Shown here piece after piece: positions 19,029 through 24,776 of a stretch of 24,776 nucleotides of DNA. The position numbers and the translations under genes were made by a program. The notes below the pieces were generated by a model that was not told the origin of the DNA, did no database searches, and worked only from the letters and a program-made list of their open reading frames with translations. The first letter of the stretch is position 1. Each line of letters opens with the position of its first letter. Origin of the DNA: a virus; IMG/VR virus record IMGVR_UViG_3300013372_002862, positions 1-24,776 of that record; one strand, 5' to 3'.

Positions 19029-19370
19029 TTATCTTGTGATTGTTTTTTTAACCAATGCAGTTCCTTCAACAACTCTTGTTGTAGTTCCATCCGGTTTTTT
19101 CAGAAGTAAATCATAAAAATATTTTCCTGGTTTTATTGTTGAACTTATTGCAGCACTGAGAAGAAGTTTAACTCTACCCGTTGTTCTATCACTACCAAAT
19201 TCTATTGTAAAATCAGCACTTTTTGATGAAGATTCATATCTTTTCAATTGGGCACATCCTTCATACCCAGTCAAATTAAGAGAACTATTAGTTTGACTAT
19301 CTTCCAATAAGAAAGATTGTTCAAAATCTGTTCCCGTATGAATAACAATATTACTAACGTATACAGTCAT
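19029..19370 (-). CDS. Beta-rich probable virion/fibre-associated protein, copy 1 (113 aa)
   Basis: A 113-aa protein starting MTVYVSNIVIHTGTDFEQSF, with alternating strand patterns, an NLTGY turn and a DRTTGRVKLLLSAAISSTIK segment, ending in a strand VVEGTALVKK. It is clearly homologous to the neighbouring minus-strand gene at 19393-19737 along its whole length. The pattern (VTL/DTGTDF, NLTG, KPGxYxYDLLL) is that of small beta-sandwich domains found on phage fibres or baseplates, such as BppU-type N-terminal domains; this is inference. It has a late-promoter match upstream on the minus strand. Confidence 0.83.
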   Translation of the reverse strand: MTVYVSNIVIHTGTDFEQSFLLEDSQTNSSLNLTGYEGCAQLKRYESSSKSADFTIEFGSDRTTGRVKLLLSAAISSTIKPGKYFYDLLLKKPDGTTTRVVEGTALVKKTITR

Positions 19371-19392: not shown

Positions 19393-19737
19393 TTAAAAAC
19401 AACCAGTAGAGATTCCTGCTCTCACTAATACATTTCCTTCAACGCCGATTGCTTTATTGCCATTTGGACGTATTAACAAAACGTCATAAACATATCTTCC
19501 AGGTTTGACAGTTGAAGTAACAGTACTTGCCATTGATATTTGTATTTTTCCATTTGTCCTATCCAAGAATGATACACCAAAACCAACATATGATGATGTA
19601 TCTGGACTTTTTCTCATATAACAACTTGCAGCAAACCCAGTAAGATTTACTGGAAGTCCCCCAGACTGTTCAAGTTCAAATATTTCACTAAAATCGTCAT
19701 TCGTGTCAATTACAAGATTTCTTACATATACTGACAT
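19393..19737 (-). CDS. Beta-rich probable virion/fibre-associated protein, copy 2 (114 aa)
   Basis: A 114-aa paralogue of the minus-strand neighbour. Both share M(S/T)VYVxNxVI, a following DF, NLTG(F/Y), DRT(N/T)G(K/R), T(S)TxKPG(R/K)YxYDxLL and VEGxxLV. The pair arose by tandem duplication and has diverged. No catalytic motif is visible. A small beta-sandwich on the virion surface or fibre is the best guess from the family look. It has its own late-promoter match (GATAAATA) 23 nt upstream and runs opposite to all other protein genes in the window. Confidence 0.83.
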   Translation of the reverse strand: MSVYVRNLVIDTNDDFSEIFELEQSGGLPVNLTGFAASCYMRKSPDTSSYVGFGVSFLDRTNGKIQISMASTVTSTVKPGRYVYDVLLIRPNGNKAIGVEGNVLVRAGISTGCF

Positions 19738-20302: not shown

Positions 20303-20456
20303 TTGGGCACTTGACCGCATTCATACTCTCTGTGACAAAAAATGTATTGAAAATGCCCATGCGATTCAATCTGAATTTAGTGAATGGTTGAATCCGGATA
20401 TTTCAGATCATGATATTTTCTCATTAGAGTTCATAGGAGAGGAAAATGACACTTGA
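20265..20456 (+). CDS. Small acidic hypothetical protein (63 aa)
   Basis: A 63-residue acidic protein (MVTLEETLQTTHDWALDRIH at the start, SDHDIFSLEFIGEENDT at the end). It overlaps the endonuclease gene by 38 nt and the peptidase gene by 11 nt. It has a cysteine pair (LCDKKC) but no complete metal motif. No function is recognised. The nested overlaps support translation as part of the lysis-gene unit. Confidence 0.72.
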   Translation: MVTLEETLQTTHDWALDRIHTLCDKKCIENAHAIQSEFSEWLNPDISDHDIFSLEFIGEENDT

Positions 20457-21117
20457 CCTTCACAACTTTTTTAAGTTTTACGACGACAGCAATTCAAATC
20501 ACGTGGCAGCAGTTCAATGGTTAGAGGATAACCTACCTGCTCAATTCTTAGATGATGCAGAAACTGATTGGATTGGAATTTTCAGAACAAAACCACCAAC
20601 TCCGGAAGTTCTTGCAGTTCCATATTTTAATCAAGTAGATAATTACAGAGATGCACATAGAACTTGCAACAGTTCATCGTGCGCTATGTGCCTTGCTTTC
20701 CTCAAACCAGGAAGCATCAAAGGCGACGATGAATATGTTAAGAAAGTATTTGCGATTGGCGACACGACTGATCACTCCGTACAGACGAAAGTTCTTGCGG
20801 GTTATGGCATTAAGTCACACTTTAGTTACAATCTTTCTTTTGCTGACATTGATAAGAGTCTTGATGCTGGGAAACCTGTTGTTATTGGTATCCTGCATAG
20901 GGGTTCTTTATCTAATCCTACTGGTGGGCACATGTGTGTAGTTATCGGTAAGACTCCCGATGGTAAGGGTTATTATATTAACGATCCATATGGTTCACTC
21001 AACGATAACTATACTGGTCCAGTGACAAATGGTAAAAAAACCATTTATACAAAAGCAGTTCTCAAGCATCGCTGGTGTCCAGGAGGAAATGATGGATGGG
21101 GAAGAATATTCGATTAA
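20446..21117 (+). CDS. C39-like cysteine peptidase with shared N-terminal domain
   Basis: A 223-aa protein in two parts. Residues 3-37 (DLHNFFKFYD, then AVQWLEDNLP) form a domain also found at the start of the lysozyme downstream, 28 of 35 residues identical. Residues about 57-215 are a Peptidase_C39_2-like papain fold: VPYFNQVDN, nucleophile C74 (HRTCNSSSCAM), H162 (GGHMCVVIG) and D180 (YYINDPYG). Such enzymes cut peptides, including peptidoglycan cross-bridges, so a role in lysis or DNA entry is likely. The Shine-Dalgarno AGGAG is next to the start. Confidence 0.88.
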   Translation: MTLDLHNFFKFYDDSNSNHVAAVQWLEDNLPAQFLDDAETDWIGIFRTKPPTPEVLAVPYFNQVDNYRDAHRTCNSSSCAMCLAFLKPGSIKGDDEYVKKVFAIGDTTDHSVQTKVLAGYGIKSHFSYNLSFADIDKSLDAGKPVVIGILHRGSLSNPTGGHMCVVIGKTPDGKGYYINDPYGSLNDNYTGPVTNGKKTIYTKAVLKHRWCPGGNDGWGRIFD

Positions 21118-21229
21118 TTTCAAAAGAAAGATGCTTAAGATCATAAAGGATCTTACAAATAACGGTAAACATAAAGAAGCAAACGACCTTTATCAAAAGT
21201 ATTTCGGAGGACTAAATGGCAAGAATTGA
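21092..21229 (+). CDS. Small helical protein between the two lytic genes (45 aa)
   Basis: The start at 21092 is set by AGGAGG five nt upstream; a neighbouring ATG at 21089 is too close to it. The gene overlaps the peptidase by 26 nt and the lysozyme by 14 nt. The 45-residue product (MDGEEYSINFKRKMLKIIKD at the start) is one or two charged helices ending in LYQKYFGGLNGKN. I do not recognise it. Tight nesting between the peptidase and lysozyme suggests a helper of either. Confidence 0.75.
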   Translation: MDGEEYSINFKRKMLKIIKDLTNNGKHKEANDLYQKYFGGLNGKN

Positions 21230-21887
21230 TTTACATAACTTCTTCAAGTTTTATGACGAGAAGAATCCTAATCACGTTAAAGCGGTTCAATGGTTAGAAG
21301 ATAATCTCCCAGTTAAGTTCTTAGATGACAATGTTGATTGGGCGGAGATTTATAGAGGAAAAAAGGGTAATGCGGCACCAGCATCAGCACCATCTGCTGC
21401 CGCTCCTGTGACGGGTGGTGATGATGTTCCTATGATGGGCATCAAGTTGATCAAAGAGTTTGAAGGATGCCACTTGAAGGCATATCCTGACCCTCTCACC
21501 GGTGGTCTGCCAATCACAATTGGTTGGGGTTCAACTCGTAAGAAAGATGGTTCTGCATTCAAACTTGGTGATCAAATTACCCAACAGGAAGCTGATGAAC
21601 TATTGATCAGTCAGTGTAAGAATCAATTTCTCCCTGCACTTCGTAAGATCCCACATTGGAATGAAATGTCAGATGGAAAAAGAGGCGCTCTGCTCAGCTT
21701 TGCTTATAATCTTGGTGCCGGTTTTTACGGTGGTGATAACTTTAATACTATTACTAAACGCCTGAAGAATAAAGAGTGGGATCTAGTTCCCGATGCTCTT
21801 TATCTCTACCGCAATCCTGGTTCAAATGTTGAGGCAGGTTTAGCACGTAGAAGAAAGGCAGAAGGAGATGCCTGGAAAAAAGGATAA
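21216..21887 (+). CDS. GH24 lysozyme (endolysin) with shared N-terminal domain
   Basis: A 223-aa muramidase. Residues 4-38 repeat the N-terminal domain of the upstream peptidase. An Ala/Pro/Ser linker (about 51-68, NAAPASAPSAAAPV) leads to a GH24 catalytic domain from about 73. The T4 lysozyme triad positions are E83 (KEFEGC), D92 (AYPDP) and T101 (ITIGWGS), with a short insertion (GGLP) between D92 and T101. It cleaves the MurNAc-GlcNAc bond. No signal peptide is present, so release would need a holin unless it is virion-borne. The start has a strong GGAGG, and the stop overlaps a late promoter. Confidence 0.93.
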   Translation: MARIDLHNFFKFYDEKNPNHVKAVQWLEDNLPVKFLDDNVDWAEIYRGKKGNAAPASAPSAAAPVTGGDDVPMMGIKLIKEFEGCHLKAYPDPLTGGLPITIGWGSTRKKDGSAFKLGDQITQQEADELLISQCKNQFLPALRKIPHWNEMSDGKRGALLSFAYNLGAGFYGGDNFNTITKRLKNKEWDLVPDALYLYRNPGSNVEAGLARRRKAEGDAWKKG

Positions 21888-21890
21888 ATA
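21883..21890 (+). promoter_or_regulatory. T4-type late promoter GATAAATA
   Basis: A late-promoter match overlapping the lysozyme stop codon. Transcription would start near 21896 and give a leader of about 135 nt before the ATG at 22031, long enough to hold the 20-bp hairpin. Confidence 0.65.
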
Positions 21891-21942: not shown

Positions 21943-22026
21943 GAGTCCTCTGTGACTTGGTGAATACTTTACTTTTAAACAACTTAGGTTTGTTTTGTTT
22001 AGTACACACTAAGTCATAGAGGACTT
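21943..22026 (+). promoter_or_regulatory. 20-bp leader hairpin burying the ribosome-binding site
   Basis: Bases 21943-21962 pair with 22007-22026 without a mismatch, with three G-U pairs (21943-22026, 21952-22017, 21959-22010), around a 44-nt loop. Key halves are AGTCCTCTGTGACTT and AAGTCATAGAGGACT. The Shine-Dalgarno AGAGG (22018-22022) lies inside the stem, four bases from the 3' end and eight from the ATG. Only CTTTTATATG follows, so it is not a normal terminator. A translation-control or RNA-stability element is the best reading. Confidence 0.8.
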
Positions 22027-22030
22027 TTAT

Positions 22031-24670
22031 ATGTCTTACGCTACAAAGGCGCTTGCTGCTGCGTCTGCTTTGTTGATGGGTAGTAGTGCAATCGCTGCAC
22101 CCCTTACTTTACAGGGGAACTATGTAAAGATTGGAGTTAACGATGCTGGAACCGTTGGTTCTGGTGGAGCAACTTCTCCTGGTATTCAGTATGATTCAAC
22201 TGGAACTGCAACGTTTAATCCAGCATACGATTACCTGACTCCTGGAAATCCTTTTGAAGGATTTACTGTTAGAGGTAAAGATGGTTCAACTGTTCTTTTC
22301 AACTATTATAATAACAATAATAGTGTTGGAGGAGCACAGATTACTGGAACACTTGTAGATTATTCTGGTGTTTCATATCGCGGATTGACTTATGATAATC
22401 GTGCCGTATGGTCTGGTTCAAAAACAGAGTTTAATATAGAGCACGACTATCGTTTCAATGATAATCAACAGTTTGTTGATATCAATACTCGTTTAGAGTT
22501 TTTGATTAATGTTCCTACCCTTTACTTTGGTAGATTTACAGATCCTGATGCAAGAGCAGCAGCAGGAGATAGTTCTAGAACAGATAATACTAGAGGATAT
22601 GCTGGTGGTATTCCAGCAACCAACGTTGTCCTTTCCGAAGCACTTGTATCAAAGTACGCATTAGGTTTGTTCACAGGTCAAGTTGGTGGAGTAAACTCTG
22701 GAATCAGTGCTGGTTGGTCCACAAACCCAGAAGATTATTATAACGGAACTGATGGTGGTCCAAGCGGAGACCATACCATTGGTCTTGGATTTATGTTCTC
22801 TGGTGTTAATGCAGGGGACATCATTAACGTTCAGTATGCATATATCTTTGGACCTTCTGCGTTTGCTGCTGGATCTGGCGCAGTTTCTGGTGGTGCTGGC
22901 GGATCTACACCATCAACCTTTACTGTTACTGACGTAGGTGCTGCTTCTGCTCCAACTGCACCTGCTCCTACAACTCCCCCTGCACCAACAGTCACAGGAA
23001 CTTCCACATCGGATTCTGTATCAACCTCATCTTCATCATCAACAAGAACTGAAACTTCTTATGTAACAAGAACAGTTTCTTCAACAGATGCTGATGGAAA
23101 TCCAGTTGTAAGAACTTATACTGATACAGTTGTAACAACCATTCCAGTTACTACAACAACCACTGTTACAACTCCTGTTACCACAACAACTTACTCTGAT
23201 AGTTCTACTACATCTTCGAGTGGAACTCCTGTAACTACAACTTCTTCTGTTGATGGAACAGGAACTTCTGTTGTTTCTGCAACTGTATTGGATTCAACCG
23301 CAGTTACAAGAAATGTAACAACTTCTGCGGATACATCATCTTCAAGAACAGGATCCAGAACAGTTACCAGAACTGTAACTGATACTGATGCATCTGGAAA
23401 TCCAAGAACTAGAACTTATACTGATACTATTCTGGATACTACACCAGTCACCACAACTACAACATCATCCACACCTATAACCACGATTTATTATGCAGAT
23501 GGTTCTACATCTGTTGTAAATGGAACAACTACAACCACATCTACTTCTGCTGATGGAACTGTAAGTTCTTCCACGATTGCGACTGCTCTTGATGCAACCG
23601 CAGTTACAAGACCTTCTGTATCATCTTCATCAGTTCAGTCCACAACTCTTCCAGTTATAAATGTAACTTTGACTGAACACGCTGCATCTGAGAACAAAGG
23701 AGTTCAAAAGATTGCAAGACATCATACAACAACTACCACAACTCCAATGGTAAAAACTGTTGTAACCACCCCAGTTACAACCACCTCTTATTCTGCTGGA
23801 ACTGAGACTGTAACTAACGGAACACCTGTTACAACTTACGAACTCTGGAATGATGTTGGTATCTCACACGCATATGATAACTTGTTTGGTCGTGTAGATC
23901 AGTTAGAAGTTCTTGACGGAATCAATGATGGTATTAATGGACTTCTCAATCACGAACCAACAGCAGGTAATCAGAGATTAAGAGTATTTGAGAACAATAG
24001 ATTCGTTCAATCCTACAATGCTGATGCTTATAAAGCAGATTCCAAGATCTTCGGTGGTGGTTTTGAGTTTGATGTAACCAAAGGTTGGACAGTTGGATTC
24101 CAGTATAATAGAGTCAACATAAACCTCAATGGTGTTGATTCAAGAACACAACAGAGCAAAGATCACTTCGGTGTATTCAGTGAGATTAGGGGTAATACTT
24201 TAACCCTGAATACAAATGCTGCGATTGCAAACAGCAACTATAAGTACAACAGAACCGTAGAAGGTGTCTTTAATAATGAAGGATCAACCACTGGTTCTGA
24301 GTGGTGGGTATCTAATAGACTTTATATGCACGTAACCAAATGGTTGCATCCATTCTTCGGATATACTGTTCAGAATGTAAGAAGAAATGCTTACAATGAA
24401 ACTGGTTCTATTCAATCTGCAAGAGCAGTTGAATCTCATAACCAAACTACACATATTGGTGAGGCAGGAGTTAAGTTAGAAACTCGTTTTGGTGGTAAGA
24501 AAAATAACCTCTTTGGGGTTAGTGTAGAGGGTGCTTATGGAACTGATAGTTCTTATGGTGTAAGTGCTTCTGTTGACTATAAAGAGATTTTGTATGTTGA
24601 AGGTTCTCACGGTGTAAACAACGGAGTTACTAACAATTCTATTGCTGGTAAGATCAAGTTTAGGTTCTAA
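22031..24670 (+). CDS. Secreted Ser/Thr-repeat protein with C-terminal beta-barrel (probable outer-membrane protein)
   Basis: An 879-aa protein with an export signal, rare for a phage gene. Residues 1-22 form a Sec signal peptide: basic start (MSYATK), hydrophobic core (ALAAASALLMG) and cleavage at A-I-A before residue 23. Residues about 24-300 are a beta-rich domain (LQGNYVKIGVNDAGTVGSGG). Residues about 310-640 are extremely Ser/Thr-rich repeats with a 100-residue period. Residues about 669-879 are alternating amphipathic strands (GGGFEFDVTKGWTVGFQYNR onward) ending KIKFRF, with the terminal Phe expected for BAM-inserted outer-membrane barrels. The plan resembles an autotransporter. Superinfection exclusion, lysis or virion attachment are possible roles; none is shown. 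It follows the lysozyme and a hairpin leader. Confidence 0.85.
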   Translation: MSYATKALAAASALLMGSSAIAAPLTLQGNYVKIGVNDAGTVGSGGATSPGIQYDSTGTATFNPAYDYLTPGNPFEGFTVRGKDGSTVLFNYYNNNNSVGGAQITGTLVDYSGVSYRGLTYDNRAVWSGSKTEFNIEHDYRFNDNQQFVDINTRLEFLINVPTLYFGRFTDPDARAAAGDSSRTDNTRGYAGGIPATNVVLSEALVSKYALGLFTGQVGGVNSGISAGWSTNPEDYYNGTDGGPSGDHTIGLGFMFSGVNAGDIINVQYAYIFGPSAFAAGSGAVSGGAGGSTPSTFTVTDVGAASAPTAPAPTTPPAPTVTGTSTSDSVSTSSSSSTRTETSYVTRTVSSTDADGNPVVRTYTDTVVTTIPVTTTTTVTTPVTTTTYSDSSTTSSSGTPVTTTSSVDGTGTSVVSATVLDSTAVTRNVTTSADTSSSRTGSRTVTRTVTDTDASGNPRTRTYTDTILDTTPVTTTTTSSTPITTIYYADGSTSVVNGTTTTTSTSADGTVSSSTIATALDATAVTRPSVSSSSVQSTTLPVINVTLTEHAASENKGVQKIARHHTTTTTTPMVKTVVTTPVTTTSYSAGTETVTNGTPVTTYELWNDVGISHAYDNLFGRVDQLEVLDGINDGINGLLNHEPTAGNQRLRVFENNRFVQSYNADAYKADSKIFGGGFEFDVTKGWTVGFQYNRVNINLNGVDSRTQQSKDHFGVFSEIRGNTLTLNTNAAIANSNYKYNRTVEGVFNNEGSTTGSEWWVSNRLYMHVTKWLHPFFGYTVQNVRRNAYNETGSIQSARAVESHNQTTHIGEAGVKLETRFGGKKNNLFGVSVEGAYGTDSSYGVSASVDYKEILYVEGSHGVNNGVTNNSIAGKIKFRF
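23053..23650 (+). repeat. Two diverged 300-bp tandem repeats in the Ser/Thr-rich region
   Basis: Two copies, starting near 23053 and 23353, are exactly 300 bp out of phase: GATGCTGATGGAAATCCA at 23087 matches GATGCATCTGGAAATCCA at 23387. Each encodes TVxxTDADGNP-type, RTYTDT, PVTTTTT and TAVTR landmarks. A shorter third copy is visible near 23725 (TTTTTTPMVKTVVTTPVTTT). The repeats are in frame. Confidence 0.8.
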
Positions 24671-24706: not shown

Positions 24707-24776
24707 ATGGATAAGAAAAAAGAAAACGCTATGGGACAAGTTATTCGTATTGCGATTTTGGGTTGGTCTGCTGCCC
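24707..24776 (+). CDS. Start of a small membrane-type protein (cut by window end)
   Basis: The frame opens MDKKKENAMGQVIRIAIL and remains open to the window end (GWSAA). A basic start followed by a hydrophobic stretch suggests a membrane protein, and its place after the lysozyme would suit a holin-type gene. Too little is visible to decide. An alternative start is the second ATG eight codons in. Confidence 0.5.
   Translation, partial: MDKKKENAMGQVIRIAILGWSAA

Follow-up and report, generated by a model that had tools for sequence, protein, structure and literature searches.

A predicted autotransporter with an exchangeable passenger encoded beside phage lysis genes

The stretch of viral DNA analyzed here (an IMG/VR virus record of 24,776 nucleotides, hereafter the window) carries, directly behind two endolysin genes, a gene whose product is almost certainly a classical (type Va) autotransporter, an identity that rests on computed evidence. 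Known phage products include holins, spanins, small outer-membrane proteins and curli-pore components; in the open-access literature we came upon no study devoted to a classical autotransporter encoded by a virus. The parts of the system are of known kinds, and a few phage proteins already bear autotransporter names by automatic annotation. We give a probability of about 0.6 to the reading as a whole, namely that the protein is displayed late in infection and that its exchangeable passenger masks or remodels glycans. Taken separately, display on the surface of the infected cell is very probable, with export, membrane insertion and timing predicted, while the masking or remodelling of surface glycans is a function that we propose tentatively and at somewhat less than even odds. 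The features on which the analysis is based are listed in Table 1.

Table 1. Features of the autotransporter locus, with positions in the window
Feature	Position	Strand	Basis or detail
C39-type peptidase, endolysin-like	20446..21117	+	PF13529 52.6 bits; PHROG endolysin 10051
Phage lysozyme, directly upstream of autotransporter	21216..21887	+	PF00959 78.8 bits; PHROG endolysin matches
T4-late-promoter-like box ATAAATA, overlapping the lysozyme stop	21884..21890	+	in loci with the gene, not in gene-less loci
Leader hairpin, 20-bp main stem over ribosome-binding site (RBS)	21943..22026	+	folding z, covariation, conservation
Autotransporter gene, 879 aa	22031..24670	+	ATG 22031, stop 24668-24670
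Signal peptide, aa 1-23, approximate cleavage site	22031..22099	+	sequence, hydropathy, conserved across family
Type A passenger, aa 24-307, predicted beta-supersandwich	22100..22951	+	model, fold matches, bacterial homologues
Ser/Thr-rich stalk, roughly 100-aa repeats	22952..23854	+	composition, repeat spacing
Pre-barrel helix, aa 624-638 (cf. pore helix of autotransporters)	23900..23944	+	AlphaFold model
12-strand outer-membrane barrel, PF03797, C-terminus KFRF	23978..24667	+	Pfam, AlphaFold model, fold comparison
Start of small membrane-protein gene, DUF6450-like, cut by window end	24708..24776	+	sequence; PF20048 in relatives

Judged from its conservation, the reading frame is a real gene and not a chance ORF, because open, full-length homologues are present in dozens of contigs and the barrel is under purifying selection (median dN/dS 0.12). 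Relatives of the protein are numerous in IMG/VR (225 in one scan). By inspection, the window has the ribonucleotide reductase, RecA-like and helicase-like genes typical of T4-like cyanophages, and its endolysins are related to those of Kyanoviridae; we take the virus to be a T4-like cyanophage of freshwater cyanobacteria. A preliminary description of the DNA had recognized in the 879-aa frame a signal peptide, a beta-rich passenger, Ser/Thr repeats and a Phe-ending barrel, all of which we confirmed. The signal-peptide call combines sequence features, hydropathy and conservation: Lys6 is followed by a hydrophobic core (10-residue Kyte-Doolittle mean of up to 2.15 from residue 7) and by A-x-A sites seen around residues 21-23, and this leader recurs throughout the family. 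Serine and threonine account for 48% of residues 303-608, and the repeat unit of the stalk is apparent both in 300-nt spacings in the DNA and in the lengths of homologues, which step by about 100 aa.

Scans of the full-length protein against Pfam, PHROGs and NCBIfam gave no convincing family match, probably because of its biased composition, and scanning the barrel alone solved the problem. The isolated barrel matches PF03797 (Autotransporter) at 51.9 bits (gathering cut-off 26), and the same family is matched by the barrels of 23 of 27 relatives. An AlphaFold model built from 35 sequences (pLDDT 74.4, pTM 0.69) contains one helix and 12 strands, the latter spanning approximately residues 650 to 875, with Phe as the terminal residue. 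The barrel had earlier been placed at residues 660-879, close to its modelled position, and a structure prediction that could have returned no barrel at all returned the 12 strands. The best structural match is NalP (Z 27.4, rmsd 2.4 over 253 residues, VIA-align), and the best 19 Foldseek and best 18 VIA-align matches are autotransporters without exception, including NalP, EstA, AaaA, EspP, Hbp, AIDA-I and BrkA. All 69 distinct barrels compared are 260-261 aa long and end in KFRF or KFKF, thus in a terminal Phe; the glycine of the E. coli beta-signal consensus is missing from its usual place. Of the features that define type Va, PF03797, a predicted single-chain 12-strand barrel with its helix, a Sec signal peptide and a C-terminal aromatic residue are found, and a passenger on the cell surface is predicted. 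The initial suggestion of a secreted, autotransporter-like outer-membrane protein is therefore upheld by the Pfam match, the predicted fold and bacterial homologues that carry the same passengers on PF03797 barrels.

Two other identities were considered for the barrel and rejected. A trimeric type Vc (YadA) autotransporter would have the YadA anchor PF03895, for which the Pfam scan of the barrel gave no match, and four strands per chain rather than about 12. The cyanophage outer-membrane protein family PF24653 (Phage_OMP) was ruled out, as a Pfam scan of the window barrel and its relatives gave no match to it. We also note that the barrel region (23888-24667) was missed by the full-length scans and revealed by the isolated domain, and other phage proteins with low-complexity stalks may therefore be overlooked in annotation.

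Four unrelated N-terminal passenger types are found on the one conserved barrel: A, carried by the window protein, B (HTNSIGY), C (TDFEGG) and D. The tree of barrels has at least 18 switches of passenger type, where three would suffice, and the starred branches of the tree alone force 4-5 switches in each large passenger type. The leader/signal module is likewise reassorted (14 changes), and the passengers themselves are under purifying selection (dN/dS 0.14-0.20). Exchange of passengers on a conserved barrel is as expected of an exposed, selected tip. Types A and B also head bacterial proteins. In bacterial MAGs, type B is the first domain after the signal peptide; three of these proteins carry PF03797 at 99-201 bits and two more have a similar layout. 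Type A heads a bacterial autotransporter of 1186 aa with PATR repeats and PF03797 (152 bits), and also heads a bacterial protein of 331 aa, the tail of which resembles PEP-CTERM with a score short of the cut-off. These passengers are therefore common to phages and bacterial surface proteins. Types A and C had no match among named phages. For the barrel, short sequence patterns found none in bacterial genomes, and the barrel profile had no match in six bacterial genomes with a type B homologue. In type B passengers of phages and bacteria (for example L022 1371-1796 and L139 1129-2775), A-x-A stands directly before HTNS or HTVS/HTIS, and mature type B would therefore start with His; another His is conserved as well (WH or YH), and in sequence the pattern resembles that of copper histidine-brace proteins.

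The model of the type A passenger, built from 26 sequences, is of moderate confidence (pLDDT 67.8, pTM 0.77) and resembles beta-supersandwich domains found in glycoside hydrolases and phosphorylases, with dextran dextrinase (Z 16.1, rmsd 3.2 over 218 residues), GH116 (Z 15.6) and GH94 (Z ~14) as best matches. In such glycan-active enzymes the beta-supersandwich domain accompanies a separate catalytic domain. Since the fold is also that of non-catalytic domains, glycan binding by passenger A is only suggested; we regard the passenger as an exchangeable and probably glycan-directed module.

Divergent relatives with the same architecture are present in large contigs (L197, 161 kb; L199, 221 kb; L201, 105 kb), and the barrel profile of the window family recognizes those of L197 and L199 at E ~1e-37. 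The leader hairpin described below is absent from these divergent relatives. In L199 the autotransporter follows a GH19-like enzyme and Rz-like spanins, whereas in L197 it lies between CsgF and CsgG, followed by curlin-repeat proteins. This company, together with the stalked passenger, would suit an adhesin that attaches infected cells or their debris to further cells and so brings new hosts near the progeny, as in the 'sibling capture' proposed for phage curli (PMC7029224). However, no binding partner is known, expression beside lysis genes leaves little time before lysis, and no clumping was seen in the methylophage study with CsgGF, and we consider the adhesin explanation unlikely. The curli-like operon is an observation in its own right: at L197 3449-8367 (also in L196 and L203), CsgF, CsgG and curlin repeats score above Pfam cut-offs, with the autotransporter inside. 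Phage curli pores have been described, with roles in lysis regulation or sibling capture proposed (PMC9004378, PMC7029224); the published modules are said to lack csgA and csgB, whereas curlin repeats are present here. In tblastn, further phage sequences (OQ572407 57190-57957, MT837328 6243-7040 and MT836653 2652-3440) align to the barrel of a bacterial autotransporter with 22-27% identity.

The location next to lysis genes, pointed out in the preliminary description, is borne out by the C39-type peptidase and the lysozyme upstream of the gene, and is a regular one: a lysozyme gene lies at most 400 bp upstream of the autotransporter in 45 of the 56 distinct loci with enough upstream sequence. 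Viewed from the lysozyme, the autotransporter is the next gene in 31 and lacking in 44 of the 75 closest lysozyme loci, a sample that was drawn from the closest 80 loci, mostly on contig fragments, and is no census. Where the gene is lacking, mostly a DUF6450 membrane-protein gene follows about 20 bp after the lysozyme; where it is present, it sits between the lysozyme and the small membrane protein. No copy was found anywhere in contigs of up to 115 kb that lack the autotransporter at the lysozyme site, and a single one in each of the five contigs that have it there. Because the remaining lysis cassette is intact in loci without the gene, the autotransporter is facultative and not required by the cassette, and its optional presence there fits an accessory, host-surface role. 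Relatives of the autotransporter lie directly after the endolysins of two Synechococcus phages assembled from Dishui Lake metagenomes, DSL-LC02 and DSL-LC03 (PMC10611076), both with large glycosyltransferase clusters a few kb upstream; in other named Kyanoviridae whose endolysins are related, no autotransporter is annotated next to these.

The same neighborhood would suit a lysis factor, in which late insertion of the barrel weakens the outer membrane in place of spanins. The gene comes directly after two endolysin genes, the copy in L199 also adjoins lysis genes, and no spanin candidate was seen within the window. L199 nevertheless has its Rz-like spanins too, the copy in L197 is in a curli-like operon instead, and exchange of the passenger would be unexpected if the barrel alone mattered. 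An essential role in lysis is less likely on sequence grounds, because relatives with the same lysis genes do without the autotransporter, and we regard the lysis-factor explanation in general as distinctly improbable. A virion or tail-fibre protein, as thought for the YadA-domain proteins already reported in some phages, one of them in a structural proteome (PMC9146016, PMC10654107), is highly implausible given the signal peptide, the complete single-chain barrel, the missing YadA anchor and the location of the gene outside a structural gene cluster.

The ATAAATA box at the lysozyme stop is present in loci with the gene and absent in ten gene-less loci inspected. Of the late promoter proposed initially, the box at 21884 and its absence from gene-less relatives thus stand in favor, while the motif is not enriched in the window as a whole (11 found, 7.65 expected by chance). 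The leader hairpin has a folding z of -6.8, and in the RNAalifold consensus 10 of 22 pairs have two-sided changes. It is found in nearly all distinct cyanophage leaders, its stems altered yet paired, with one clear exception (L187) in which the upstream sequence differs. No other gene start in the window has a structure as strong, no such hairpin follows the lysozyme in gene-less relatives, and Rfam has no family for the leader. Box and hairpin thus travel with the autotransporter gene, and the hairpin likely gates its expression. The short U run after the stem in most leaders would also allow a transcription terminator between lysozyme and autotransporter with no translational gate. However, the loop is long and this run has just 3-5 nt, the distance from stem to AUG is a constant 2-6 nt with the RBS region covered by the stem, and relatives without the autotransporter have no such hairpin at this place, making a terminator rather unlikely.

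Stable leader structures over the RBS are likewise known for T4 gene e, soc and I-TevI (PMC2988022), and the gene studied here is presumed late. In the I-TevI scheme the shortness of late transcripts prevents the hairpin from forming (PMC2988022), unlike in the window, where ATAAATA (21884) lies upstream of the whole hairpin (21943-22026). The resemblance to the T4-type switch is therefore partial: the RBS is covered as in T4, but the box is placed differently, and either translation is released in another way or the transcripts that matter start elsewhere than at the box.

Taking the gated autotransporter as the preferred reading, the box just upstream would lead to late expression with the lysis genes, while the hairpin over the RBS would gate translation. 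The host Sec system would export the protein, and the host Omp85/BAM machinery would insert its barrel in the outer membrane; the passenger would then pass through the barrel and stand outside the infected cell on the Ser/Thr stalk. Together, stalk and barrel would form a fixed display platform with a tip that differs between phages. By masking or remodelling surface glycans, the tip may shut out rival phages and stop progeny from binding again to the cell or its debris. Such masking or remodelling would account for the presumed late expression, the swapping of tips, the dispensability of the gene and the passenger fold.

Bacterial type Va proteins (NalP, EstA, EspP, AIDA-I) likewise consist of a signal peptide, an N-terminal passenger, a helix and a 12-strand, F-ending barrel, and members of the class have passengers in common with the phage family. 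The phage protein differs in being encoded in a lysis cassette, in having no beta-helix passenger that we could find, and in its Ser/Thr repeat stalk, leader hairpin and rapid passenger exchange. Three BFVD proteins of uncultured Caudovirales (A0A6J5R861, A0A6J5L9T3 and A0A6J5KUW0) resemble it in barrel fold (E down to 1e-9), come from phages too and carry the name 'Autotransporter beta-domain containing protein' by automatic annotation only; the same is true of the autotransporter name of WJZ47857 from DSL-LC03, a direct relative of the window protein. We found no study of function, modules or regulation for any of these. The CsgG/CsgF of pelagimyophages and methylophage Melnitz are also phage-encoded outer-membrane secretion proteins and share one operon with the autotransporter in L197, but form a type VIII secretion pore, whereas the window protein is a single-chain autotransporter. 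PF24653 proteins, present in DSL-LC02 as well, are likewise phage-encoded outer-membrane barrels, but have about 120 aa and no passenger.

On a wider scale, T4-like cyanophages of fresh water, along with at least three further lineages of phages, may use a type V display platform, the passenger of which is swapped cassette-like by recombination, recoding the infected-cell surface in phage competition, with synthesis in cyanophages gated by an undescribed, co-travelling class of RBS-hiding leader RNA; we offer this as a conjecture that is somewhat less likely than not to hold. If the preferred reading is right, infected cyanobacteria would display phage-made surface proteins shortly before lysis, with a bearing on superinfection, receptor loss and the trapping of progeny by debris in lakes. 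The exchange of passengers that bacterial autotransporters also carry indicates a part for phages in how the surface proteins of bacteria evolve. Since the cassette is optional and its slot fixed, its effect is testable with natural phages that have or lack it.

Some further features of the locus and its relatives deserve mention. At their N-termini the two window endolysins resemble each other over a module of about 50 aa (LHNFFKFYD...), which may point to duplication or to the splitting of a fused gene, and S-CREM1 has one larger lysozyme gene at the corresponding place. The DUF6450 protein (24708-24776 in the window; L192 6324-6665), which carries no functional annotation, is a candidate for the missing holin in view of its two hydrophobic stretches. 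In the reservoir cyanophage S-SRM01 (NC_070963, L209), a gene annotated as porin (184931-186391) lies about 4 kb after the endolysins. Finally, a minus-strand pair of similar adjacent genes in the window (19029-19370 and 19393-19737, ~113 aa) has an ATAAATA box just upstream of each.
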